From Chryseobacterium aurantiacum (GTDB taxonomy: Bacteria > Bacteroidota > Bacteroidia > Flavobacteriales > Weeksellaceae): a stretch of 64,000 nucleotides of DNA. The notes under the pieces are model-generated. The model was given only the letters and a program-made list of their open reading frames with translations. It did no database searches and was not told the DNA's origin. The translations under genes and the position numbers were made by a program. The stretch covers positions 124,001 through 188,000 of the forward strand of contig NZ_PXUE01000001.1 in NCBI RefSeq assembly GCF_003020585.1, read 5' to 3'. Shown in pieces: positions 5,752 to 60,990 of this stretch (its first letter is position 1; every line of letters starts with the position of its first letter).

Positions 5752-7506
5752 TTATGCTTTTAAATTCAATTTCAGTTCAAGTTCATCGAGCTGTGCATCA
5801 GCAATAGAAGCCGGCGCGTCAATCATTACATCACGACCTGAGTTATTCTTAGGGAATGCGATATAATCTCTGATTACTTCGTTTCCGTCAAGAATCGCCA
5901 CCAAACGGTCAAAACCAAACGCCAAACCACCATGTGGAGGTGCTCCATACTTAAAGGCATTCATTAGGAATCCGAACTGAGCCTCAGCTTCTTCTTTTGT
6001 GAATCCTAATAAATCAAACATTTTAGATTGCAGATCTCTGTCAAAAATTCTGATAGATCCACCTCCAATTTCGTTTCCGTTCAGTACCATATCATAAGCG
6101 TTTGCTCTTGCCTTACCAGGATCAGTTTCTAATAAATGAAAATCTTCAGGTTTTGGAGAGGTAAAAGGGTGGTGCATTGCGTGGTATCTTTCGGTATCTT
6201 CATCCCATTCCAATAGAGGGAAGTCAACTACCCAAAGTGGTGCAAATACATTTCCTTTTCTTAATCCCAAACGGTTTCCAAGTTCCATTCTCAATGCAGA
6301 AAGCTGAGCTCTTACCTTGTTTTCGTTTCCTGAAAGAATCAACATTAAGTCTCCTTCTTTTGCTCCAAATTTTTCAATGATCTTACCAAGGTCTTCTTCA
6401 TTATAGAACTTGTTAACAGATGAGGTTTTCACTCCATCATTCTGGAATTTTGCCCAAACCATTCCTGAAGCTCCAACCTGAGGACGTTTTACCCAGTCTA
6501 CAAGCTCATCAATCTGCTTTCTTGTATATTCTGCACATCCTTCAACATTAATTCCAACAACCAGTTCTGCTTCATCAAATATTTTAAAGTCTTTTCCTTT
6601 TACAAGCTCATTAAGCTCTACAAACTCCATCCCAAAACGAATATCCGGCTTATCATTTCCGTATTTTCTCATCGCATCTGCGAAAGTCATTCTTGGGAAA
6701 TCTCCGAATTCCTGACCTGTAATATCCTTTATAAGGGTTTTAGTCATTCCCTCGAAAACATTCATTACATCTTCCTGCTCTACAAAAGCCATCTCGCAGT
6801 CGATTTGTGTAAATTCCGGCTGTCTGTCAGCTCTTAAATCCTCATCACGGAAACATTTTACAATCTGGAAATACTTATCCATACCACCTACCATCAAAAG
6901 CTGTTTGAATGTCTGTGGAGACTGTGGCAAAGCGTAAAACTGCCCGGGATTCATTCTGCTTGGTACAACAAAGTCTCTTGCTCCTTCTGGCGTAGATTTA
7001 ATTAAAACAGGAGTTTCTACTTCAATGAAACCTTCATCAGATAAATAATTTCTTACTTTCTGAGCCATTTTATGACGGAAAATCAATTTATCCTTTACCG
7101 GATTTCTTCTGATATCAAGGTAACGGTATTTCATTCTTAATTCCTCACCACCGTCAGTTTCATCTTCAATGGTGAATGGAGGAAGTTGGGAATCATTTAG
7201 AATTGTTAGTTTCTCAACTAAAATTTCAATTTCTCCTGTAGGAATATTAGGATTTTTACTTACTCTTTCAATTACTTTTCCGGTAGCCTGAATGACAAAT
7301 TCACGCCCCAATTTTTTAGCTTCTTCCATCAATTGTGCTGAAGAACGCTCCTGGTCAAGAACCAATTGGGTAATTCCGTAACGATCTCGAAGATCTACCC
7401 AAATCATAAATCCTTTATCACGGATAGTCTGTACCCATCCTGATAGTGTAACTTCTTCATTCAGATTTTTCAGAGATAGCTCTCCGTTTGTGTGCGATCG
7501 AAACAT
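5752..7506 (-). CDS. aspS: Aspartate-tRNA ligase
   Basis: The class II synthetase charges tRNA-Asp. The N-terminal OB-fold anticodon-binding domain (about 1-105: [22 protein letters not shown]) is followed by the catalytic core with motif 2 ([18 protein letters not shown]), the bacterial GAD insertion domain (about 280-410), and motif 3 ([13 protein letters not shown]). I start the gene at 7506 ([12 protein letters not shown]), which matches the family; a seven-residue longer reading from 7527 has no support. The product is then 584 residues, the usual bacterial length. The promoter box lies at 7565-7572 with a hairpin in the leader. Confidence 0.97.
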
Positions 7507-45489: not shown

Positions 45490-45520
45490 TAAAAAAAAAC
45501 ACTGAAAATATCAGTGTTTT
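45490..45520 (-). terminator. Original ssrA terminator, now displaced
   Basis: Read on the minus strand directly after the left att repeat: AAAACACTGA, loop, TCAGTGTTTT and nine T residues. This is exactly what should follow the 3' end of ssrA, which is now about 12.3 kb away on the other side of the island. The assignment as the former ssrA terminator is inference from position and orientation. Confidence 0.7.
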
Positions 45521-45536
45521 TGTGGAGTTGGAGGGA
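45515..45536. repeat. Left attachment repeat (attL)
   Basis: 22 bp identical to 57830-57851; it begins TGTTTTTGTGG and ends TTGGAGGGA. It contains the terminal 14 bases of the tmRNA 3' strand and diverges from ssrA right after them. Confidence 0.85.
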
Positions 45537-45675
45537 GTACGAATAATTCAATTTTACAAATCTTATAAAGCACCTGTTTTAAATGTAATTACCTTTGTTT
45601 ACAATGGTTTAAGTATGATTTTAGAACTGGTTTATTTTGATTTAAGTTGAGGTGAATTTAATTAAATTGAAATTT

Positions 45676-45716
45676 ACCGTACAAAAACCGTACAGTATTT
45701 TATATATTTGTACGGT
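45676..45716. promoter_or_regulatory. Left ACCGTACA repeats overlapping the integrase promoter
   Basis: ACCGTACA occurs at 45676-45683 and 45687-45694 (11-bp period) and inverted as TGTACGGT at 45709-45716. The inverted copy overlaps the end of the -7 box TATATTTG (45703-45710). These are candidate integrase/excisionase arm sites that would also repress the integrase promoter when bound (inference). Confidence 0.6.
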
Positions 45717-45729
45717 AAAACAAAAAGAC

Positions 45730-46977
45730 TTGGCTACAATAAACTTTCTTTACCGCTCTGCCAAAGAGCAAGCACCCCTCAACATAAGGTTATTATTTAG
45801 GTGTGATGGAGTAGATTATGTGTACGGGGCAAAAACCCTGCTAAAAGTAGATAAAGAGTACTGGGAAAAATATCACGACCAAAAGCGCCCTAAAACCATT
45901 GAAATAGCAAACAGGCAAAGGGAGGTAAACACAGAGATAAACGATATTCAGAACTTCGTTTTAAATGCGTTTGAAAAAGCCTTGCCGACTGAGATTGATA
46001 AAGTTTGGCTACAAACAAAAATAGATAGCTATTATAACAGAGAACCTGATAGGGTTCGAATCCCGCAAGGACTAATACAGTTTGTTGATTATTATATACA
46101 AGAGAAAGGGAATGATATTACTCCCTCTACAGTTAAAAAGCTAAATGTAGTCAAGCATAAATTAGAGCGTTACGAAAAAGAAAAAAAAGTAACCTTACTT
46201 ATTTCGGAGATTAACGAACAATTCAAAAATAATTTTATAGCGTACTGTACAAAGGAAAATTACGCTATTGGTACTGTGCAAAGAGATTTAGTATTTATTA
46301 AAACTTTTTGCAATTATGCCTACGAAAAAGGATTAGAGGTAGATAGAAACCTCAGCAAATTGCGAATAAAAGTAAAAAAAGAAATTAAGCACCCTTATTT
46401 ATCACTTTCCGAACTTGAACAAATAGAGAAAGCGGAGCTAAGCGATAGCCTTTCAAATGTTAGGGACTGGCTAATTATTTCGTGCTATACAGGGCAGAGA
46501 ATATCTGATTTTATGAATTTTAATACAGGTATGATACGTGTAGAAAATGGTAAATCCCTGCTTGAATTTAGACAAAAGAAAACCAATAAATTAATGACTA
46601 TCCCAGTGCTTCCTAAAGTAATGCAGATATTAGAAAAAAGAGGTGGGGAGTTTCCCAACAAAATATCCGACCAAAAATATAATGATTATTTAAAAGAGGT
46701 TTGTAAAAAAGCGAAAATAAATCAAGAAATTGAGGGTAGCAAAAAAATGGAAGTAGAGTTAAACAGCGGGAAATATAGGAAAGATGAAGGAATATATGAA
46801 AAATGGGAGCTTGTATCCTCGCATATAGGACGGCGTTCTTTTGCCACCAACTTCTATGGTAAAATACCTACAAGCCATTTAATTTTTATGACGGGACACA
46901 CTACCGAAAGAATGTTTTTAGAATATATAGGGAAAAGTACAAAAGATACTGCGCTTGAACTGTTTAATTATTTTTAG
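45730..46977 (+). CDS. Tyrosine site-specific integrase of the island
   Basis: The protein has an N-terminal arm-binding domain (about 1-90), a SAM-like core-binding domain (about 95-200) and a catalytic domain with the tyrosine recombinase residues: Arg in SCYTGQRISDFM, His-Arg in SSHIGRRSFATNFY, His in FMTGHTTERM and the nucleophile Tyr in FLEYIGKS. I start it at TTG 45730 (ATINFLYRS, a usual Bacteroidota integrase beginning), 14 nt after the predicted transcript start; the longer frame from GTG 45652 runs through the promoter and repeats. The 415-residue product should recombine the ssrA 3' end. Confidence 0.93.
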   Translation: MATINFLYRSAKEQAPLNIRLLFRCDGVDYVYGAKTLLKVDKEYWEKYHDQKRPKTIEIANRQREVNTEINDIQNFVLNAFEKALPTEIDKVWLQTKIDSYYNREPDRVRIPQGLIQFVDYYIQEKGNDITPSTVKKLNVVKHKLERYEKEKKVTLLISEINEQFKNNFIAYCTKENYAIGTVQRDLVFIKTFCNYAYEKGLEVDRNLSKLRIKVKKEIKHPYLSLSELEQIEKAELSDSLSNVRDWLIISCYTGQRISDFMNFNTGMIRVENGKSLLEFRQKKTNKLMTIPVLPKVMQILEKRGGEFPNKISDQKYNDYLKEVCKKAKINQEIEGSKKMEVELNSGKYRKDEGIYEKWELVSSHIGRRSFATNFYGKIPTSHLIFMTGHTTERMFLEYIGKSTKDTALELFNYF

Positions 46978-50908: not shown

Positions 50909-51010
50909 AGATTTGTCAAAAATATAGGTGTAAATTCAAAATACCGTGAAAATACCTATAATATGTTAAAGACATTTTAATTATAATTGTCACTATAAAA
51001 CACCAATGCA

Positions 51011-52498
51011 ATGCGAAAAATTTATTTTACCGCTATCTCATTATGTATCTATCAGTTAGGATTTACGCAAATTCCTAACTTACCTACTATCTCCAGACCA
51101 CAAGCAAGTGGGTTAGGCAATTACTCCAGTAATGATTTTGGAAGTTCTGTAAGTGGTAGAAGCTCCCCAAGAAACTATACTCCCAATATTCCGAATCGTT
51201 CAAACTCCGCACAGCAACAAAATGATTATGCACTACAACAGTCAAGGTCACAGAATAATGCTGTCATGCAGAATATAGATAGGGATATGGCAGAAGTTCA
51301 GGAAATGCAATTCCGTGAGTGGGTAAACAACGGTAGAAATATGCCGTATGATTTACCGTCATTATCAGCAAAAGCAGGAACACAATCTTATTATGATGCT
51401 TTTAGTACACTTTCAGGAATGGATTCCGAAAATTACTCGTTAGCTGATGTCAATTTTACAGTAGAAAATGCTTATTACGACAATAAACGAGATTTAAAAG
51501 GCTTCAAATCGGGAATCCAAAAAACAGCCAAACAATTATTGCAGAAAATGAAGGAACGAAAGCAGGACACGGAAAGCAATGTTTCTAAAAACCTGATGTT
51601 GTTTGAATATTTTTCTAAGGATATGAAATTAGGAGGAACAACCCATAAAGCCTTTGAATATGATTTTAAGGATTATATGGGCGAAAAAGATTACTCAAAG
51701 ATGTTCGTTTCTAAATTGCTAAAGACGGGTTCAGGACAATGCCACTCAATGCCTTTATTATACCTGATTATTGCAGAAGCTATGGGAGCAGAAGCGCACT
51801 TGTCATTAGCTCCGAATCATTCTTACGTTCGTTTTATGGATGATGAAGGACAGTACAGAAATATTGAACTTACCAACGGTATGTTTTCAACGGATACCTC
51901 TTTGTTAGAATCTGGTTACATCAAGTCCGAAGCCTTGCAGAATAAAGCATACATGGAAAACCTTTCCAAAAATGAATTATTAGGAATGGCTTATTTCGAT
52001 TTGGCGAGAGGATATGTTAAAAAATTTGGATATGACGAGTTTGTAGGCAAGGTAGTAGAAAAGGCGTTAGAACTTTATCCGAACGGACTTGCTCCGAACA
52101 TGGAAAAGGCAAATGTAAGTCAGGCAAGATTTGCCCGTGTAATGAAAAACTTAGGAATCAATCCCGAAAACAGACAAGATTTACAGAGGATTGGATATTT
52201 CCCAAAGGCGATTGAACAACTAAATAATGTTAATCAGCAATTTAACAAGATTGATGAACTTGGTTATACGGAAATGCCTGCATCAGCTTATGAATCGTGG
52301 TTGACAAGTCTGAAAACGGAGAAGAATAAACAGGAAAGCGAAGCACTCGCACAAAAAATATATCTGTACCAACGTCAAAAACAAATAGATAAACAACAGC
52401 AGGAAGCAGTAAGAAAAGCACAGGAACAGAAGAAAAAAGAATCAGAGAAATCAAAGGGAAAAGCCCAATATTTCCCAATAGACCCAACAAAATTATGA
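51011..52498 (+). CDS. Secreted transglutaminase-like protein (long paralogue)
   Basis: The 495-residue protein has a signal peptide (about 1-19, LGFTQ), an Asn/Ser/Gln-rich low-complexity N-terminus (about 20-95), and a transglutaminase-like/papain-fold region: Cys244 in SGQCHSMPLLYL, His270 in LAPNHSYVRF and an acidic residue in YRNIELTNG, which would form a Cys-His-Asp/Asn-type triad. A helical TPR-like part and a Gln/Lys-rich coiled C-terminus follow. It overlaps the next, related gene by 4 nt (ATGA). It may process or present the downstream toxin (inference). Confidence 0.8.
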   Translation: MRKIYFTAISLCIYQLGFTQIPNLPTISRPQASGLGNYSSNDFGSSVSGRSSPRNYTPNIPNRSNSAQQQNDYALQQSRSQNNAVMQNIDRDMAEVQEMQFREWVNNGRNMPYDLPSLSAKAGTQSYYDAFSTLSGMDSENYSLADVNFTVENAYYDNKRDLKGFKSGIQKTAKQLLQKMKERKQDTESNVSKNLMLFEYFSKDMKLGGTTHKAFEYDFKDYMGEKDYSKMFVSKLLKTGSGQCHSMPLLYLIIAEAMGAEAHLSLAPNHSYVRFMDDEGQYRNIELTNGMFSTDTSLLESGYIKSEALQNKAYMENLSKNELLGMAYFDLARGYVKKFGYDEFVGKVVEKALELYPNGLAPNMEKANVSQARFARVMKNLGINPENRQDLQRIGYFPKAIEQLNNVNQQFNKIDELGYTEMPASAYESWLTSLKTEKNKQESEALAQKIYLYQRQKQIDKQQQEAVRKAQEQKKKESEKSKGKAQYFPIDPTKL

Positions 52499-53601
52499 TG
52501 AAAAAACTATTACACATTAAACTCTTTACAATACTTTTTATCAGCAGTATTACAAGCATAAAAGCACAAAATAATCAGTTTTACAATGATTCCTACCAGA
52601 CTATTGATAATATGCTTAATGATACACAGCTGTACAGCTTCAAAGAAGCCGTTTTTAGCGTGGAAAATGCCTATTATCAAGGGAAGTTAGATATTAACAA
52701 ATTAAACGGAGAAATCGGCTTTTTAAAGAACTTCGCAAACTCTATTTTGAAGAGCCGAGATTTAACATACAAAGAATCCGATAAAGACAAGGTAAGCAAG
52801 TATGCAACAGTATATTCCATTATGTGCCAAACCTTACCTGTTGCCTACAAAGATACTGTGATACAGTACAAACCATTTACTTATGATTTTACAGATGTGT
52901 TCGGACATAATGATATTAGCAACCTGTTTGTATCAAAGTTATTGGTAACGAAAAAAGGAAACTGCAATTCAATGCCGTATCTATACAAGATTTTGGCAGA
53001 GGAAATCGGAGCAGATGCCAATTTAGCGTTAGCACCGAACCATGTTTATATCAAGCATAACATTAAAGCAGGTGGTTGGTTCAATACGGAGCTTACAAGC
53101 GGTATTTTTCCTATTGATGCGTGGTTGACAGCTTCGGGGTATATTCATTTGGATGCCATTAAAAATGGTGTATTTATGAAAGCCCTGAACAACAAGGAAA
53201 GTTTAGCATTATGCTTATTTGATTTAGCACAGGCTTACAATAGAAGTTTTCCCAGTAATGACGGAGAATTTGTTTTAAAAACGCTTGTCAGAGCATTAGA
53301 AGTCTATCCAAATTTTGCTAAAGCACTGATATTACAAGCAGAAACCCACAAAGAGCAGTTTACTAAATTGATGGATAGACACAACCTGAAAACAGATAAT
53401 GCCGAAAATTTAAAACTCGTACAACAGCAAGACCCAAAAGCGAAAGAACTGTTTGAATTGATGAATAAGGAGTACGGACATATTTACGAAATAGGCTACC
53501 GACAAATGCCCGAAGAAATGTATTTAGATTGGTTGGTGTCACTAAAAACTGAAAGAGAAAAATTTGAGAACAAAAAATTATTAAACAACTTTACAAAATA
53601 A
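52495..53601 (+). CDS. Secreted transglutaminase-like protein (short paralogue)
   Basis: The 368-residue paralogue of the preceding protein has a signal peptide (about 1-25, SIKAQ), the same core with Cys157 in KGNCNSMPYLY, His183 in LAPNHVYIKH and NTELTSG, and the same helical tail (VLKTLVRALEVYPNFAKAL). It lacks the long low-complexity N-terminus and charged C-terminus. The two copies keep the putative catalytic residues, which argues for activity in both. The toxin gene starts 4 nt after its stop. Confidence 0.8.
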   Translation: MMKKLLHIKLFTILFISSITSIKAQNNQFYNDSYQTIDNMLNDTQLYSFKEAVFSVENAYYQGKLDINKLNGEIGFLKNFANSILKSRDLTYKESDKDKVSKYATVYSIMCQTLPVAYKDTVIQYKPFTYDFTDVFGHNDISNLFVSKLLVTKKGNCNSMPYLYKILAEEIGADANLALAPNHVYIKHNIKAGGWFNTELTSGIFPIDAWLTASGYIHLDAIKNGVFMKALNNKESLALCLFDLAQAYNRSFPSNDGEFVLKTLVRALEVYPNFAKALILQAETHKEQFTKLMDRHNLKTDNAENLKLVQQQDPKAKELFELMNKEYGHIYEIGYRQMPEEMYLDWLVSLKTEREKFENKKLLNNFTK

Positions 53602-53605
53602 CCAA

Positions 53606-54697
53606 ATGAAAAAAATATTATTAATTGTCTTTGCCATATTAGCAGGATTTTTACAGGCACAGACAAAGAAACACACCTCCACCAGACAAAAAACGGAAAA
53701 GAAATGGGTAAACCCTGTTAAACTGACAAAAGAAGAGCGAAACCGTCCTTATATGGATGAGGTTTTGAAAACCCGAGATTCATTAACACCACAGGAAGCA
53801 GAAAGACGTAGAAAAAATATTGCTGTCGGAAATCCTTTTGCGAAGTATGGAGTTTATCCGAAAATTGCAACACTCAGCAAAGGAAAGTATCTGGAATTTC
53901 ACGATATGGATAGTATTGTAAGCATTGGTTCAGTGCGATTCAACAGGAAAACAAAATCTATCATAGAATTTAGAGAGATTGATTTGAGCGACCCCGATAC
54001 ACAACCGTATTTAGATACAGCGGGACGTTGGATAAGCCCTGACCCATTGAGTGAAGAGTTTCCGAGTTGGTCACCATATAATTATGCGTTTAATAATCCG
54101 ATGAGATTTACAGACCCGACAGGATTAGCACCAGAAGATGCAACACAATGTTGTTGGTGGTTTAGATTAATGCCATTATTTGAAGAAACATCTATCAAGC
54201 CAACTGTTATTGAAACTCTTACAAAAACAGGTGAGGCAGGAACTAAAGCAGGAGAGTCATCAGCTCAACAAGAACACTTTAATTTTGGTAGATATGTCGA
54301 AAAAAAGCAACTCGAAGAAATGGGTCTTGAAAAAAATAATAGAACATTTGAATTTAAAGACCCAAAAACTGGAAAAACAGAGAGAACCATACCTGATGCT
54401 ATTACCGATGAAGGAGGAACTGTAGAGATAAAGCACGTACAAAAACAATCTCTTACTAAACAATTAAGAGGACAGCAGGAAATTTCAAAAGCGAATGGAC
54501 AGGAAGCGTTATTAAAAATAAATGAAACGGCTAAACTATCCAAGCCATTAGAAAAGTCAGGAATTAATATTCAAAGATATACACCTCCTGCAAAACCTAA
54601 AATAGATAATATTAAAGTTACTCCTGCTCCTGCTCCAAAACTTATACCTGTGCCCAAGCCCAAGAACCCTTGTGCTGGTATTCCTAATTGTGCATAG
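53606..54697 (+). CDS. Secreted Rhs-core protein with Tox-REase-7-like nuclease end
   Basis: The 363-residue protein has a signal peptide (about 1-19, FLQAQ), a Lys/Arg-rich region and a single Rhs-associated core motif at about 141-175 (RWISPDPLSEEFPSWSPYNY, then NPMRFTDPTGL), which marks the toxin junction in polymorphic toxins. The C-terminal domain has a PD-(D/E)xK-like pattern: IPDAIT with Asp264, then VEIKHV with Glu274 and Lys276, then LTKQLRGQQ, similar to restriction-endonuclease-fold toxins of the Tox-REase-7 type. It ends in a Pro/Lys-rich tail. Unlike usual Rhs toxins there is no large YD-repeat cage. It likely is a secreted DNase toxin (inference). Confidence 0.8.
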   Translation: MKKILLIVFAILAGFLQAQTKKHTSTRQKTEKKWVNPVKLTKEERNRPYMDEVLKTRDSLTPQEAERRRKNIAVGNPFAKYGVYPKIATLSKGKYLEFHDMDSIVSIGSVRFNRKTKSIIEFREIDLSDPDTQPYLDTAGRWISPDPLSEEFPSWSPYNYAFNNPMRFTDPTGLAPEDATQCCWWFRLMPLFEETSIKPTVIETLTKTGEAGTKAGESSAQQEHFNFGRYVEKKQLEEMGLEKNNRTFEFKDPKTGKTERTIPDAITDEGGTVEIKHVQKQSLTKQLRGQQEISKANGQEALLKINETAKLSKPLEKSGINIQRYTPPAKPKIDNIKVTPAPAPKLIPVPKPKNPCAGIPNCA

Positions 54698-54720
54698 TTT
54701 AAAATTTATTATATTTAAAA

Positions 54721-55077
54721 ATGAATAATGTTGAAAAATTGCTTGAAGCAATTAAAGAACAAGCAGAAAAATTCTTACTTGAAAATGGCGAATTTGCTCC
54801 GTATGCTACTCATATTAGAGCGAACGGAAAACTTACATATATTGGTGCTTACTCGGAATCAACCGACTCACAAGAATTATATGATATTTTATTAGCTGGA
54901 GCTTATGACGACTTAAAAGATGAGGACGTTCGAATCTATGGTATTGCTATGGACGGGAAGTATCATGGAAAAGATGTGTTAGTTGTTGAATTTATTCTAT
55001 CACCAGAAAATAAATATCAACAAATCTATCCCTACACCATAGAAAATAAAAAGGTGAAATTTGGCGAACAGCTTTAA
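54721..55077 (+). CDS. Probable immunity protein
   Basis: The 118-residue acidic, soluble protein without a signal peptide is encoded 23 nt after the toxin gene. It has a compact alpha/beta pattern (FLLENGEFAPYATHIRANGK, then YGIAMDG and LVVEFILSPENKY) like several Imm-type immunity families. Assignment as the inhibitor of the upstream nuclease rests on position, size and cytoplasmic location. Confidence 0.65.
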   Translation: MNNVEKLLEAIKEQAEKFLLENGEFAPYATHIRANGKLTYIGAYSESTDSQELYDILLAGAYDDLKDEDVRIYGIAMDGKYHGKDVLVVEFILSPENKYQQIYPYTIENKKVKFGEQL

Positions 55078-55101
55078 TGAATTTATTAATTTCTAAAAAT
55101 A

Positions 55102-56079
55102 ATGACTAATAATCCATATTTGACTTTTAAAAACGATGAATTGACAAAATCGAAAATTTTAGCTAAAGAGCTAAATATTTCTGAAAATGATTTCATCAAC
55201 ATTCAAAATTGGTTTGATTTGTTACTTTTGAAGCATGAAGAATCGAGTAGTGATAGAGAGAAGCAATTAAAAGCAGAAAAAGATTTAGAAACCAAATTCA
55301 GCGAACTTATTTCATCAGAAATTGAAAGAAAAAGCTATAAATATGTATTAACCAAGTTATTGAATTATAATAACGAATTTAATGGCTCATTTTTAAGGTC
55401 ACTATATGTTGCAAGATTAGGGACTTTACTTAGAGAGAACTTAATACCCAAACTTGTAAATGATAACATGATTATCTATTCACCAGAAGATTTTTTACAT
55501 ACTACCGCTTATCTTAGAGATAATTATTTTGTTTCTCCAAATAGTAATTTTTTGGAAGACATATTTAAGATAGAACAGGTACGGGGTATTCTTAAACACG
55601 CTACGATTAAAGTAAAGTATGAAACTTTGAAGAATATATTGCACATTATATATCAAAAGACTTATCACCATGATATAATCTGCTTTAAAAAGATTTTAAA
55701 ATTAGTTTCAGAAAAAGATACAGAGTTAATTGAGTATTTGAAGAAATTTAAAGTAGAAAATAAACAGGGATGTTATAAGATTATTAATGACATTTTAAAT
55801 TTGAAAATATCAGATAACAATTGGAATGACTTTGAGATTAAAGTTCTTCTGATTAATTTTTTCGATACAGCCAAAGGTGCTAATCCTACGACCAGTTGGA
55901 AAAAAAAATTCAAAGAGCTGTCTGTAACTATTGATAAAAACAAGTTTTTACAAATTGTGCAATCAATTTTAGAAAATGAAAACTGTAAAAACTATGAGTT
56001 CGATTATGGAGCGCAATGGGCTGATGATACAGCAAAACGATTTTTGAAGTCGGCGCAATGGATAAAAAATATTTTATAA
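55102..56079 (+). CDS. Unknown helical protein of the PIN/HExxH unit
   Basis: The 325-residue soluble, Lys/Asn/Ile-rich protein appears mostly helical, possibly with HEAT-like repeats in the second half (FKKILKLVSEKDTELIEYLKKF; QIVQSILENENC). The C-terminus WADDTAKRFLKSAQWIKNIL resembles a segment that, in larger helical proteins, continues for many more residues, so this could be a shortened version. Its stop codon TAA and the next start codon overlap as TAATG, so translation is coupled to the PIN protein. It may sense a trigger or hold the nuclease (inference). Confidence 0.7.
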   Translation: MTNNPYLTFKNDELTKSKILAKELNISENDFINIQNWFDLLLLKHEESSSDREKQLKAEKDLETKFSELISSEIERKSYKYVLTKLLNYNNEFNGSFLRSLYVARLGTLLRENLIPKLVNDNMIIYSPEDFLHTTAYLRDNYFVSPNSNFLEDIFKIEQVRGILKHATIKVKYETLKNILHIIYQKTYHHDIICFKKILKLVSEKDTELIEYLKKFKVENKQGCYKIINDILNLKISDNNWNDFEIKVLLINFFDTAKGANPTTSWKKKFKELSVTIDKNKFLQIVQSILENENCKNYEFDYGAQWADDTAKRFLKSAQWIKNIL

Positions 56080-57140
56080 TGAATATGGATTATATTTTTT
56101 TAGATACAAGTATTTTTGTGAAAGAAAACTTTCTTGAGGGAGGTCGTATTAGGGAATTAATGAAATTATCTGAGGAGAGAAAGATAAATATTGTAATGAC
56201 AAAAATTACAATTGAAGAAGTTAAGGTAAGATTTAAAAAACAAATTAAAAAGGCTCTGGAAGAGTTTGGAAAATTTAAGAATAACTATGATAATATTGTT
56301 TTGAAAAATGATATACATGGTAAAGATATTTTTCAACGCCTTTATGATAAACCTATTTCAGAAAAATTTAATAGTGATTTAGATGAATTATTATTAAGGT
56401 CAAATGTTATTATTATTGATTATTCTGAAATAAATGTAGAGCCAATTTTTGAGAAATATTTTAAAGGACAATATCCATTTAATAATGCCGATAAAAAGAA
56501 TGAATTTCCTGACGCATTCTCTTTGGCACTTTTAGAAAAATGGTGTAATAAAAAGAAAATTAAATGTACTTGTTTTTCTACTGATAAAGACTTCTTAGGA
56601 TATATAAGTCCTGTTTTATTCATAACTAAAGATTACGAAAATTATTTAAATAATAAACTGAAAGAAATACTGGAAGAAGAAAGGGTTGAGGTTTTAGATG
56701 AAATTTTCGAAACTAATTCGGATAGAATTGATGAAGAAATTATCAAATGGTATACTCAGAGTTTGGATGATGAAACTCTTTATTATCATTTTATATATTA
56801 CGAGATACATAATTTGAAAGTTACCGATATTACAATTTTAGAAAAGTCTTACCAAATAATTTCGATTGAAGAAGAATGTATAGAGATAGAAATAGATGTA
56901 GAGTTATCATATTATGTTGAATTGACTATTGATGATGAAGAAAATTCATATTATGATGATGAGGAAAAAATTATGCATTTTTATGGAGTGCGTATTGAGC
57001 CTATTGAAAGGACTACTACGGCAACAGTTACTGCATTAGCATATATAACTGATAAAAACGATTATGATAAGTTTTTAGAAATTACAGAGATTAATAAGGA
57101 TGTTTCTTTGAAAATAAGCCCACATGATTATGAGTATTAA
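56079..57140 (+). CDS. PIN-domain (DUF4935-type) nuclease
   Basis: The 353-residue protein has an N-terminal PIN domain (about 1-180) with the metal-binding acidic residues placed as in DUF4935/PIN_12 proteins: Asp in IFLDTSIF, Glu in TIEEVKVR, Asp in NEFPDAFSLALLEKW and Asp in CFSTDKDF. The C-terminal part (about 200-353) is a beta-rich, very acidic domain of unknown function. PIN domains cleave RNA. I start at ATG 56079, which overlaps the previous stop; the ATG at 56058 is inside the upstream gene. It overlaps the next gene by 17 nt. Confidence 0.82.
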   Translation: MNMDYIFLDTSIFVKENFLEGGRIRELMKLSEERKINIVMTKITIEEVKVRFKKQIKKALEEFGKFKNNYDNIVLKNDIHGKDIFQRLYDKPISEKFNSDLDELLLRSNVIIIDYSEINVEPIFEKYFKGQYPFNNADKKNEFPDAFSLALLEKWCNKKKIKCTCFSTDKDFLGYISPVLFITKDYENYLNNKLKEILEEERVEVLDEIFETNSDRIDEEIIKWYTQSLDDETLYYHFIYYEIHNLKVTDITILEKSYQIISIEEECIEIEIDVELSYYVELTIDDEENSYYDDEEKIMHFYGVRIEPIERTTTATVTALAYITDKNDYDKFLEITEINKDVSLKISPHDYEY

Positions 57141-57738
57141 AAGTAATGATAGACATAAAATAAGAAGAGTTTTTTATCACGAATTAGGACATTATGTGTC
57201 TGCATTTTTAAATAAAAAATACTTTACTGGTTATGGCTCAGAATATATTAAAATACATAGGTGCGAAAATAAACAAGATGAATTTTGCGGAAAGACCGAA
57301 CCTATAAAACCTAAAGATTACAAAAAGAATATATTATTCTATGAGACGTTATCTGAAAATCTTGTAAGCTATATATATGGGTGTCTTTTTCAATCATATT
57401 TTTCACAATCCCAAACATTAGAGTATTGTTTTAAATATTTTGGTAAGAATGATGAAGATGCATTTTATAACAACATTGCAATACATCGGTTAGGGCAAGA
57501 AAAAGCGTTTAGGTTGGAGCAATTAAACAATGAGCATTATAAGAAAATAGCTGATAATGAACTTTTAAAGGAGTTAGAAAGCATTGATATTTTAAGTATT
57601 CTTATTGAAAATGATATTAAAGACGAATATTTTGTAGATTTAAAAACCTTACACGAAATTATTGAAGGGTTTTTAGAATCATATAAAGATGTTTATTGCG
57701 AGTTTATTGAGAATTACAAAGATGTAATTAATGAGTAA
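57124..57738 (+). CDS. HExxH zinc metallopeptidase-like protein
   Basis: The 204-residue cytoplasmic protein carries VFYHELGHYVSAFLN at residues 16-30, a textbook HExxH zinc motif; a third ligand could be a Glu in the following helix (YETLSENLVSYIYG). The rest is helical and acidic, ending in repeated FxExYKDV. It overlaps the PIN gene by 17 nt and ends the island just before the right arm repeats. It could activate or inactivate a partner by cleavage (inference). An alternative start is ATG 57130. Confidence 0.75.
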   Translation: MIMSIKSNDRHKIRRVFYHELGHYVSAFLNKKYFTGYGSEYIKIHRCENKQDEFCGKTEPIKPKDYKKNILFYETLSENLVSYIYGCLFQSYFSQSQTLEYCFKYFGKNDEDAFYNNIAIHRLGQEKAFRLEQLNNEHYKKIADNELLKELESIDILSILIENDIKDEYFVDLKTLHEIIEGFLESYKDVYCEFIENYKDVINE

Positions 57739-57790: not shown

Positions 57791-57836
57791 AAAAGCCTTA
57801 AATAACTGATAATTAGTTAATTAAGGCTTTGTTTTT
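57791..57836. terminator. Hairpin terminator at the right end of the island
   Basis: AAAGCCTTAA pairs with TTAAGGCTTT, with an inner TAACT/AGTTA helix, and T or A runs on either side. It ends the island operon and now also serves ssrA on the minus strand in place of the displaced original. Confidence 0.88.
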
Positions 57837-57851
57837 GTGGAGTTGGAGGGA
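57830..57851. repeat. Right attachment repeat (attR)
   Basis: Identical 22 bp to 45515-45536. It covers the ssrA 3' end (acceptor strand and start of the T-arm), which stays functional after integration. Confidence 0.85.
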
Positions 57852-58236
57852 TTCGAACCCTCGTCCAAACAAGCAATACATAAGCTTTCTACATGCTTAT
57901 TCTACTATTGGTTTTCGACTGAAAGCAGAGAGTAGACACCCAACTTCCAACTTATCTTCTAAGGTTTTCGAATTTCAGCCGAAGCTTCTGAAATCTTATT
58001 TCCGCATTCCTATATCCCAGAATCAAACGCCGCAGAACAGAGCATTTGTGGAATATCTTGCTTCCCTACTGAAATCTTCGGGAAAACGCTTGATCTACTA
58101 TACTTCGATATTAAGCTGCAAGAGCGAACTCTTCGTTGCCAGTTAAAATTTTGTAGCAAGGGATTATAGAGATCGCGCTACGGTTCTCTGCATGCTTACT
58201 TACCCATTGGTCTTGCTGTCGAAACCAGTCAACCCC
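57838..58236 (-). ncRNA. ssrA: Transfer-messenger RNA
   Basis: On the minus strand the 5' end GGGGTTG pairs with CAACTCC near the 3' end to form a 7-bp acceptor stem; the T-arm GGGTTCGAATCCC precedes the latter. CCA is not encoded. The tag frame is at 58140-58111 (minus strand) and encodes GNEEFALAA followed by TAA, a typical degradation tag ending ALAA. It rescues stalled ribosomes together with SmpB. Its 3' end is the insertion site of the neighbouring island. Confidence 0.95.
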
Positions 58237-60228: not shown

Positions 60229-60302
60229 GCCTCCATAGCTCAGTTGGCCAGAGCACGTGATTTGTAATCTCGGGGTCGTGGGTTCGAATCCCTCTGGAGG
60301 CT
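60229..60302 (+). tRNA. tRNA-Thr (TGT), copy 1
   Basis: GCCTCCA pairs with TGGAGGC; anticodon loop TTTGTAA gives TGT; T-loop TTCGAAT; discriminator T. CCA is not encoded. First tRNA of the duplicated cassette. Confidence 0.95.
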
Positions 60303-60320
60303 CATAAAATATAAAACTTT

Positions 60321-60401
60321 GGGGAGATTCCAGAGTGGCTAAATGGGACTGACTGTAACTCAGTTGCTTCGGCTTCGTAGGTTCGAATCCTGCTCTCCCC
60401 A
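60321..60401 (+). tRNA. tRNA-Tyr (GTA), copy 1
   Basis: GGGGAGA pairs with TCTCCCC; anticodon GTA in CTGTAAC; a long class II variable arm (TTGCTTCGGCTTC region) as expected for bacterial tRNA-Tyr; discriminator A. Confidence 0.95.
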
Positions 60402-60424
60402 CTTTATATTTTTATAAAAAAAAC

Positions 60425-60455
60425 TTGCAAGATTAAATTAAATTTCTTAGTTTTG
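60425..60455 (+). promoter_or_regulatory. Internal promoter before tRNA-Gly, copy 1
   Basis: TTG (60425-60427), 20 nt, TAGTTTTG (60448-60455); the same element is present in the second cassette. Confidence 0.6.
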
Positions 60456-60489
60456 CACAGCGTTTACCAATGGTTTTGGAAACAAAATT

Positions 60490-60562
60490 GCGGAAGTAGC
60501 TCAGTTGGTAGAGCGTCAGCCTTCCAAGCTGAATGTCGCGGGTTCGACCCCCGTCTTCCGCT
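60490..60562 (+). tRNA. tRNA-Gly (TCC), copy 1
   Basis: GCGGAAG pairs with CTTCCGC; anticodon loop CTTCCAA gives TCC; T-loop TTCGACC; discriminator T. Confidence 0.95.
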
Positions 60563-60566
60563 CAAT

Positions 60567-60596
60567 AAAATCACACTTTAAAAGTGATTTTTTTTA
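60567..60596 (+). terminator. Terminator after the first tRNA cassette
   Basis: AAATCAC with GTGATTT around an internal CTTT/AAAG helix, then eight T residues. Confidence 0.8.
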
Positions 60597-60651
60597 ACAC
60601 TGAAACGTGTAGAGTAGAGTTTCTCTATCACTTTCAGTCAATTATTAAAAT

Positions 60652-60725
60652 GCCTCCATAGCTCAGTTGGCCAGAGCACGTGATTTGTAATCTCGGGGTC
60701 GTGGGTTCGAATCCCTCTGGAGGCT
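60652..60725 (+). tRNA. tRNA-Thr (TGT), copy 2
   Basis: Identical to the copy at 60229-60302, with anticodon TGT. Confidence 0.95.
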
Positions 60726-60745
60726 CATTTTAATATAAAATATCT

Positions 60746-60826
60746 GGGGAGATTCCAGAGTGGCTAAATGGGACTGACTGTAACTCAGTTGCTTCGGCTT
60801 CGTAGGTTCGAATCCTGCTCTCCCCA
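60746..60826 (+). tRNA. tRNA-Tyr (GTA), copy 2
   Basis: Identical to the copy at 60321-60401, including the long variable arm. Confidence 0.95.
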
Positions 60827-60848
60827 CATTTTATATTATAAAAAAAAC

Positions 60849-60879
60849 TTGCAAGATTAAATTAAATTTCTTAGTTTTG
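60849..60879 (+). promoter_or_regulatory. Internal promoter before tRNA-Gly, copy 2
   Basis: TTG (60849-60851), 20 nt, TAGTTTTG (60872-60879), in a spacer almost identical to the one in the first cassette. Confidence 0.6.
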
Positions 60880-60913
60880 CACAGCGTTTACCAATAATTT
60901 TGGAAACAAAATT

Positions 60914-60986
60914 GCGGAAGTAGCTCAGTTGGTAGAGCGTCAGCCTTCCAAGCTGAATGTCGCGGGTTCGACCCCCGTCTTCCGCT
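60914..60986 (+). tRNA. tRNA-Gly (TCC), copy 2
   Basis: Identical to the copy at 60490-60562, with anticodon TCC. Confidence 0.95.
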
Positions 60987-60990
60987 CAAT

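Follow-up and report, generated by a model that had tools for sequence, protein, structure and literature searches.

Genes at the end of a mobile island

We analyzed a 64,000-nt stretch of the Chryseobacterium aurantiacum genome (contig NZ_PXUE01000001.1, positions 124,001 to 188,000; hereafter the window), focusing on three adjacent genes, termed A, B and C, that lie at 55102-57738 (Table 1). An earlier note, made from the sequence alone, had described them as overlapping genes for a large helical protein, a DUF4935-type PIN nuclease and an HExxH protein, situated in the cargo end of a mobile island, and this description was borne out. All three genes are on the plus strand. A and B overlap in a TAATG (56077-56081), and B and C overlap by 17 nt. 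The open reading frame (ORF) of B spans 56058/56079-57140, its length being counted from the ATG at 56079, and C has an alternative start at 57130. The island measures 12.3 kb. It is bounded by identical copies of a 22-bp direct repeat, TGTTTTTGTGGAGTTGGAGGGA, one of which covers the 3' end of the transfer-messenger RNA (tmRNA) gene, and it carries a tyrosine integrase gene. The note had also taken A, B and C as one anti-phage or toxin-type system. Our data suggest instead that A belongs to the locus upstream, and they point tentatively to B and C as a nuclease–protease cassette.

Gene B encodes a predicted RNase

Gene B matched PIN_12 (PF16289) over the full profile (positions 1-172), scoring 88.7 bits where the cut-off is 32. 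Residues D9, E47, D145, D169 and D171, which we take to be the catalytic acidic residues of PIN proteins, were invariant in all six aligned rows. The C-terminal region of B is also acidic, as read from the sequence. B is hence a clear PIN_12 member and a predicted RNase.

PIN_12 matches were seen in 11 of the 296 genomes of the family, the query genome included, and we checked 12 B loci outside the window (10 in genomes, 2 on plasmids). Several have immune-type neighbors. A PIN_12 relative lies beside Lamassu LmuA/LmuB in locus L073, and in L072, which is also at an ssrA site, an SMC/AAA-type gene lies 14 nt upstream of the PIN_12 gene. On a Shewanella plasmid, the relative and an AbiH-family gene are 1 nt apart; on a Sphingobium plasmid, the relative lies by a phospholipase gene of a cyclic oligonucleotide-based antiphage signalling system (CBASS). 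No immune gene was recognized by PIN_12 in L074, L075 or L076, where neighbors were not profile-scanned, and the ∼3-kb stretch of L071 (genome G219) gave no PIN ORF. A PIN protein search of genome contigs found no relative, and PHROGs gave no useful match for B. VapBC systems pair a small antitoxin gene with a PIN-only protein. We rejected this assignment, as B has 353 aa, with the 325-aa A of an Rhs array upstream and the 204-aa C downstream. Among PIN_12 genes, pairing with C was found in this window alone.

Gene C resembles the FtsH protease domain in predicted fold

Gene C encodes a zinc-protease-type protein with the motif HELGH, whose H19, E20 and H23 were invariant in all 14 aligned members of the C family. 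The other invariant residues were G22, G56, Y85, G86, C87, Q90, G107 and D110. The third zinc ligand of FtsH is an aspartate. D110 has a spacing comparable with that of D88 in the host FtsH, in a region where the profile alignment is unreliable.

The AlphaFold model of C had a predicted local distance difference test score (pLDDT) of 92.5. VIA-align placed 19 FtsH-type entries first (Z 8.5–11.9 over 128–168 residues), followed by 5iqj, a protein of unknown function, at Z 6.3 and then by Z 3.3; among the entries listed, no non-FtsH fold exceeded Z 6.3. In Foldseek, ranks 1–17 were all FtsH-type chains. We trust the FtsH match because it lies far above the other matches, covers the chain and includes the HExGH helix. 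Several points weigh on the other side. VIA warns that Z below ∼13 may lack specificity where a model is mostly helical, the best Foldseek E value was 0.027 with no match at E ≤ 0.001, and the fold match depends on one model. Profile comparison aligned C with FtsH over the HExxH helix alone, and none of the 14 members matched PF01434 at E ≤ 1. By sequence, C is not recognizable as an M41 member.

The protease domain of FtsH, m-AAA and FtsHi (MEROPS M41) resembles the predicted fold of C along almost all of its chain, and C shares the HExGH helix; its invariant Asp, by spacing, may correspond to the third zinc ligand. Unlike those proteins, C has no AAA+ ATPase or membrane part. The 14 aligned members each stand alone, at about 196–212 aa, with no fused AAA+ ATPase. 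In our judgement, C is a small predicted zinc protease, similar in fold to the protease domain of FtsH (M41) but lacking the ATPase.

The family is unnamed in Pfam, NCBIfam and PADLOC, and C had no match among PDB sequences. PHROGs gave no match for three of four members; the fourth matched a metallo-protease family at E 0.055, over a short stretch only. Pfam matches to M64, M48, M50 and SprT were sub-threshold. The FtsH-like domain of IetA, as described in the available part of PMC10924106, is unrelated to C. As a separate observation, 5 of 20 relatives searched have, besides FtsH, a second, divergent M41-type match (open frame of 629–639 aa; L107–L111).

Gene C recurs behind nucleases and in immune-type operons

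The C family is rare. A single-sequence search found it in 5 of the 296 genomes of the family, the query genome included. Profile searches found it in 4 of 296 genomes of the order (the query and the divergent L086 among them) and in 2 of 395 of the phylum (the query and one spurious match). In the families of the genomes that carry L055 and L058, the counts, again with the query genome included, were 5 of 191, one being a broken copy, and 3 of 189. A scan of GTDB contigs gave 12 loci. With duplicates counted once (L050 = L030, L060 = L033, L061 = L032), there are 18 distinct C loci, namely the window and 17 others. We kept L086 as a divergent member (237 aa, E 7.5e-8), counted as having no recognized immune neighbor, and dropped a 37-residue match within a 689-aa protein (G583, L087) as spurious. 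The closest relative of the window's C, with 53% identity, is in L030, and the two pair in the tree; the nearest named relative is from Chryseobacterium hagamense (NZ_BJYJ01000024.1). C was not found in viral contigs, and tblastn gave no match to plasmids (window C and two relatives) or to phages (window C and one relative). The record of L059 is titled Beijerinckiaceae, yet fell in the same family as a Chitinophagaceae-titled record in the genome search, and is possibly a mislabelled bin.

A same-strand gene lies ≤35 nt upstream of C in 7 of the 17 other loci, and in 8 of 18 when the overlapping window pair is included. Seven of these eight tight loci are nuclease or immune-type operons; two near-relative pairs among the seven reduce them to about five independent cases. 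In all eight, C ends the close-packed run, with the next same-strand gene at least 90 nt downstream or absent. In L032 and L033, C lies 6–8 nt behind a gene for a 1457/1459-aa protein with an Mrr/LmuA-like start and a STAND/AAA ATPase, which itself comes after HamA/HamB-like genes (L032 by scan, L033 by likeness). In L052, McrB and McrC are followed by DUF559 and, 9 nt further on, by C; in L053, C lies 16 nt behind HNH_2. In L055 and L056, it lies 33–35 nt behind a gene for a 686-aa protein without a family match above cut-off, and a phospholipase D (PLD)-like PDC-S05 gene precedes that gene (L055 by scan, L056 by likeness). The seventh tight locus outside the window is L127, where the upstream gene encodes a TPR protein and an Mrr-like PDC-S02 gene follows C at a distance of about 360 nt.

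Spacing is wider in other loci. C lies 146 nt behind SLATT_6 and CD-NTase genes (CBASS) in L058 and 165 nt behind a PDC-M14B-like gene in L031; in L054, the upstream gene falls in the 124–165-nt class and has no immune match. C of L031 (9531, minus strand) is preceded, within 40 bases, by a 20-base stretch identical to the 3' end of the L032 Mrr-STAND gene. No Mrr-STAND ORF is listed just upstream of C there, and the stretch may be the remnant of a decayed Mrr-STAND and C operon like that of L032. C of L030 lies 55 nt before a PrimPol gene of the type associated with defence-associated reverse transcriptases (DRT), which is followed by a putative reverse transcriptase gene, as read from the sequence. 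A divergent kinase gene lies by C in L051; its best PADLOC match, PD-T4-6, is possibly generic. L086 has C 59 nt behind a gene for a 297-aa protein without a family match.

In total, 12 of the 17 other loci have an immune-type gene as neighbor or near-neighbor. For comparison, PADLOC matches at E < 1e-3 were seen for 1 of 10 backbone genes in the window. In a tree of 14 C proteins, 4 of whose 11 inner branches had good support, partner types fell on separate branches except for two like pairs. Judged by gene context, the C family is an apparently interchangeable part of immune-type operons, often directly behind a nuclease gene.

Proposed action of C on its partner nuclease

The pairing of a PIN nuclease with a zinc-protease-type protein in a mobile island was found in none of the libraries (Pfam, NCBIfam, PADLOC and PHROGs) or papers searched; the earlier note, too, knew of no described system with its three-gene composition. 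Searches of the open-licence PMC literature showed no stand-alone M41-type protease in defence. The nearest parallels come from 2025. According to the available part of Tuck et al. 2025 (PMC12799240), a partner protease can activate the nuclease by proteolysis in Hachiman and Avs systems. A trypsin-like protease fused to HamA, Avs or LmuA, or a caspase, is combined there with a nuclease of metallo-β-lactamase (MBL) fold, and such pairs occur in Hachiman, Avs, Lamassu, DRT and canu. As in the pairs covered there, protease and nuclease genes are adjacent in our case, with the nuclease gene upstream, and C too was repeatedly acquired by unrelated immune systems, Hachiman-like ones included. Its partners are Hachiman-like/Mrr-STAND, McrBC/DUF559, HNH, PLD-like, CBASS, PDC-M14B-like and PIN. 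In contrast to those pairs, C is a free, predicted FtsH-like metalloprotease rather than a fused trypsin-like one, the nucleases vary (PIN, Mrr, DUF559, HNH, PLD-like) instead of being of MBL fold, and activation, which was reported there, is proposed here by analogy. Because both protease and nuclease folds differ, B and C stand outside the published pairs. Our best reading is that B and C would work like the trypsin/MBL pairs, yet be unrelated to them.

We propose that B and C form a nuclease–protease cassette in which C switches on its partner nuclease by proteolysis, and we put the probability of this at about 40%. An infection signal would let C act on the partner; C would clip a limited, exposed site, switching the nuclease on; and the active PIN protein would cut RNA, so that growth stops. 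Limited cleavage is a more natural role than processive degradation because C has no unfoldase. What the sequence analysis shows is gene order, intact catalytic motifs, the predicted fold and the recurrent linkage. The proposal would further require that C is an active protease, that the partner is its substrate, that control runs in the activating direction and that the pair has an antiviral role.

Certain observations fit this proposal poorly. B and C occur together in the window only, and the closest C locus, L030, has no PIN gene in its 20-kb stretch. The nuclease-like gene of L055 and L056 sits two genes upstream of C, with PLDc_2 below cut-off; the close upstream gene of L127 encodes a TPR protein; and no nuclease was seen at L058. 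No immune neighbor was recognized in 5 of the 17 other loci (L054, L057, L059, L086 and L126), whose neighbors were partly scanned, and given these loci C may act alone. The PADLOC control was small (10 genes), and islands concentrate defence genes, which inflates linkage.

One alternative has C working on its own, as a single accessory or defence gene whose neighbors reflect clustering in islands only, with no functional link. The five loci just named agree with this, among them L126 (7581-8973), where C lies 70 nt behind the gene for a different zinc peptidase (PF04298) among housekeeping genes, as does L128, where a broken C copy (7029-7408) is near, and convergent to, a SIR2_2 gene. It accounts less well for the spacing in the 8 tight loci, 7 of which, from five independent cases, are nuclease or immune-type operons, and we consider it rather unlikely.

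C could also restrain its partner. In the manner of an antitoxin, the protease would hold the effector nuclease at a low level or in a cut state, and infection would lift this by blocking C. The position of C 3' of its partners, overlapping or closely following them in 8 of 18 loci, would suit such a role, as would the fact that FtsH-type proteases degrade proteins. However, all 12 other PIN_12 loci are without C in the stretches compared (one of them, L071, of ∼3 kb), indicating that PIN proteins of this type do not in general need C, and C has no ATPase for processive degradation. Restraint stays compatible with both points for the B–C pair itself; even so, we think it unlikely.

CapP, like C, is an HExxH protein. 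As reported in the available part of PMC13373217, CapH and CapP regulate CBASS and other operons, CapP cleaving the repressor CapH, and here too a protease is attached to diverse immune operons. By this analogy, C, a predicted protease that accompanies several differing immune-type operons, might control their transcription. Yet no repressor partner was seen: none of the four genes at 54721-57738 matched a helix-turn-helix family (Pfam, E ≤ 1; a divergent one is possible). C also comes last in the close-packed run of each of the 8 tight loci, and its predicted fold is FtsH-like. Transcriptional control by C is accordingly improbable.

If C does activate B, the window would hold a protease-controlled, RNA-cleaving effector. 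More broadly, stand-alone FtsH-fold metalloproteases might be a further, independently evolved kind of interchangeable immune protease, gating unrelated nucleases and CBASS by proteolysis; this wider claim is doubtful at present. In 2025, trypsin-like and caspase proteases were reported to activate nucleases of bacterial immunity by proteolysis (PMC12799240, available part). If another, unrelated protease fold recurs behind genes of Hachiman-like, McrBC and CBASS systems and behind single nucleases, this would point to gating by proteases as a general design, and C would serve as a short marker gene for unrecognized defence operons.

Gene A goes with the upstream Rhs locus

To place gene A, we compared it with its relatives. 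Matches to A occurred in 19 of the 296 genomes of the family, the query genome included. With their flanks, we compared 14 full-length loci outside the window (13 genomes, 67–80% identity) and 2 fragments (L048 and L049); small matches in G146, G179 and G213 were not among these. A homolog of the window's toxin gene, to which the toxin domain was assigned by profile in the window only, lies near A in 11 of the 14 full-length loci (L035–L041, L043 and L045–L047), separated from A by one or two genes and partial in L041 and L043. The remaining three (L034, L042 and L044) have upstream of A a gene for a protein of 1116–1136 aa, without a match to the window's toxin gene. In 8 of the 14 (L035, L038–L041 and L045–L047), a homolog of the 118-aa protein is encoded between the toxin gene and A; this protein is likely an immunity protein.

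DNA homology to the window ends at 56085, 6 nt past A, in L034, L035, L038 and L041, and at 56063 in L040, the fifth locus compared; in L035, it spans 50934-56085 at 84%. In L034 and L035, the ATG of the next gene is at the position corresponding to the ATG of B. By profile scan, this gene encodes a DUF2314 protein in L035. DUF2314 is an immunity family of heterogeneous polyimmunity loci (Zhang et al. 2012, PMC3482391, available part). Judged from these alignments, the TAATG that joins A to B is the start site of the Rhs immunity array. Because this start site is common to Rhs arrays of other genomes, it is misleading as evidence for a unit with B: start codons can overlap simply because a splice point was inherited, and such an overlap is no evidence of a functional unit.

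The model of A was helical except for a short hairpin, with moderate confidence (pLDDT 71.7), and Foldseek gave weak alpha-solenoid matches (best E 0.42). PHROGs gave no useful match. Given the end of homology just past A and the toxin-homolog context, A closes an Rhs/Tox-REase-7 polymorphic-toxin locus as its last gene and most likely encodes an immunity-type protein. The available part of PMC3482391 links HEAT-repeat immunity proteins to Tox-REase-7, marking this link for Actinobacteria, Planctomycetes and Verrucomicrobia and not for Bacteroidetes, and also links Imm23 to Tox-REase-7. A is likewise a helical protein behind a Tox-REase-7 gene, although HEAT repeats are not established for it.

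The earlier note had read the three genes as a unit in which a sensor and a protease control an effector, and had held that rarity of the trio elsewhere, along with the lack of a phage or toxicity phenotype, would speak against this. Within the stretches compared, profiles found B or C in none of the 16 A loci (2 of them fragments), A or C in none of the 12 B loci outside the window and A or B in none of the 17 other C loci. The first of these two conditions thus holds, and the three-gene unit was rejected; its nuclease–protease core survives in changed form, because C recurs behind other nucleases and immune-type operons. The best explanation is that the window joins two spliced parts, an Rhs locus ending in A and then a B–C cassette (56079-57738) before the island end; we separate A from B and C because homology ends at 56085 in four of five loci and because no co-occurrence was found at the other loci. 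A three-gene sensor–effector–protease system, for which the TAATG and the 17-nt overlap make co-transcription likely, is very improbable given the Rhs context of A, the stop of homology 6 nt past A and the lack of A, B and C together at the other loci.

The insertion site and surrounding features

The coordinates of the island features are collected in Table 1. The repeat pair was missed among the top 20 of the repeat tool, and a 21-base search with mismatches returned the right copy only.

Table 1. Island features and genes in the window, in order of position
Feature	Coordinates	Strand	Remarks
Left att-like direct repeat	45515..45536		22 bp, same as 57830-57851, found by eye
Tyrosine recombinase (integrase), left end of island	45652..46977	+	Phage_int_SAM_5 E 7.4e-11; Phage_integrase E 9.2e-7; XerD-like
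Transglutaminase-like protein, Rhs module, outside B and C	51011..52498	+	Transglut_core2 E 2.3e-4, below cut-off; homologs beside A elsewhere
Rhs-module protein, weakly transglutaminase/TPR-like	52495..53601	+	Sub-threshold matches
Rhs-core protein with Tox-REase-7 domain (toxin gene)	53606..54697	+	Tox-REase-7 E 1.2e-10; Rhs_assc_core E 7.9e-9
118-aa protein between toxin gene and A	54721..55077	+	No family match (Pfam, NCBIfam)
Gene A, alpha-helical, 325 aa, Rhs immunity array	55102..56079	+	14 full-length loci; helical model
Gene B, PIN_12 (DUF4935) predicted RNase, 353 aa	56079..57140	+	PF16289 E 7.7e-25; invariant acidic residues
Gene C, stand-alone HELGH protein, 204 aa, FtsH/M41-like predicted fold	57124..57738	+	AlphaFold and VIA
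Right att-like repeat, at 3' end of tmRNA gene	57830..57851		Second copy of 22-bp repeat
tmRNA (ssrA), insertion site of island	57837..58236	-	3' end of gene covered by right repeat

From 51011 to 57738, all genes are on the plus strand and the gaps between them are short or negative. Two related genomes also carry cargo at the ssrA region: L030 has PDC-S49, C and a DRT-associated PrimPol gene, and L072 has a PIN gene with an SMC/AAA-type gene. As this immune-type cargo differs, the genus may have a defence hot spot in the ssrA region. Farther along the window, at 60229-60987, a Thr-Tyr-Gly tRNA triplet occurs twice in tandem.

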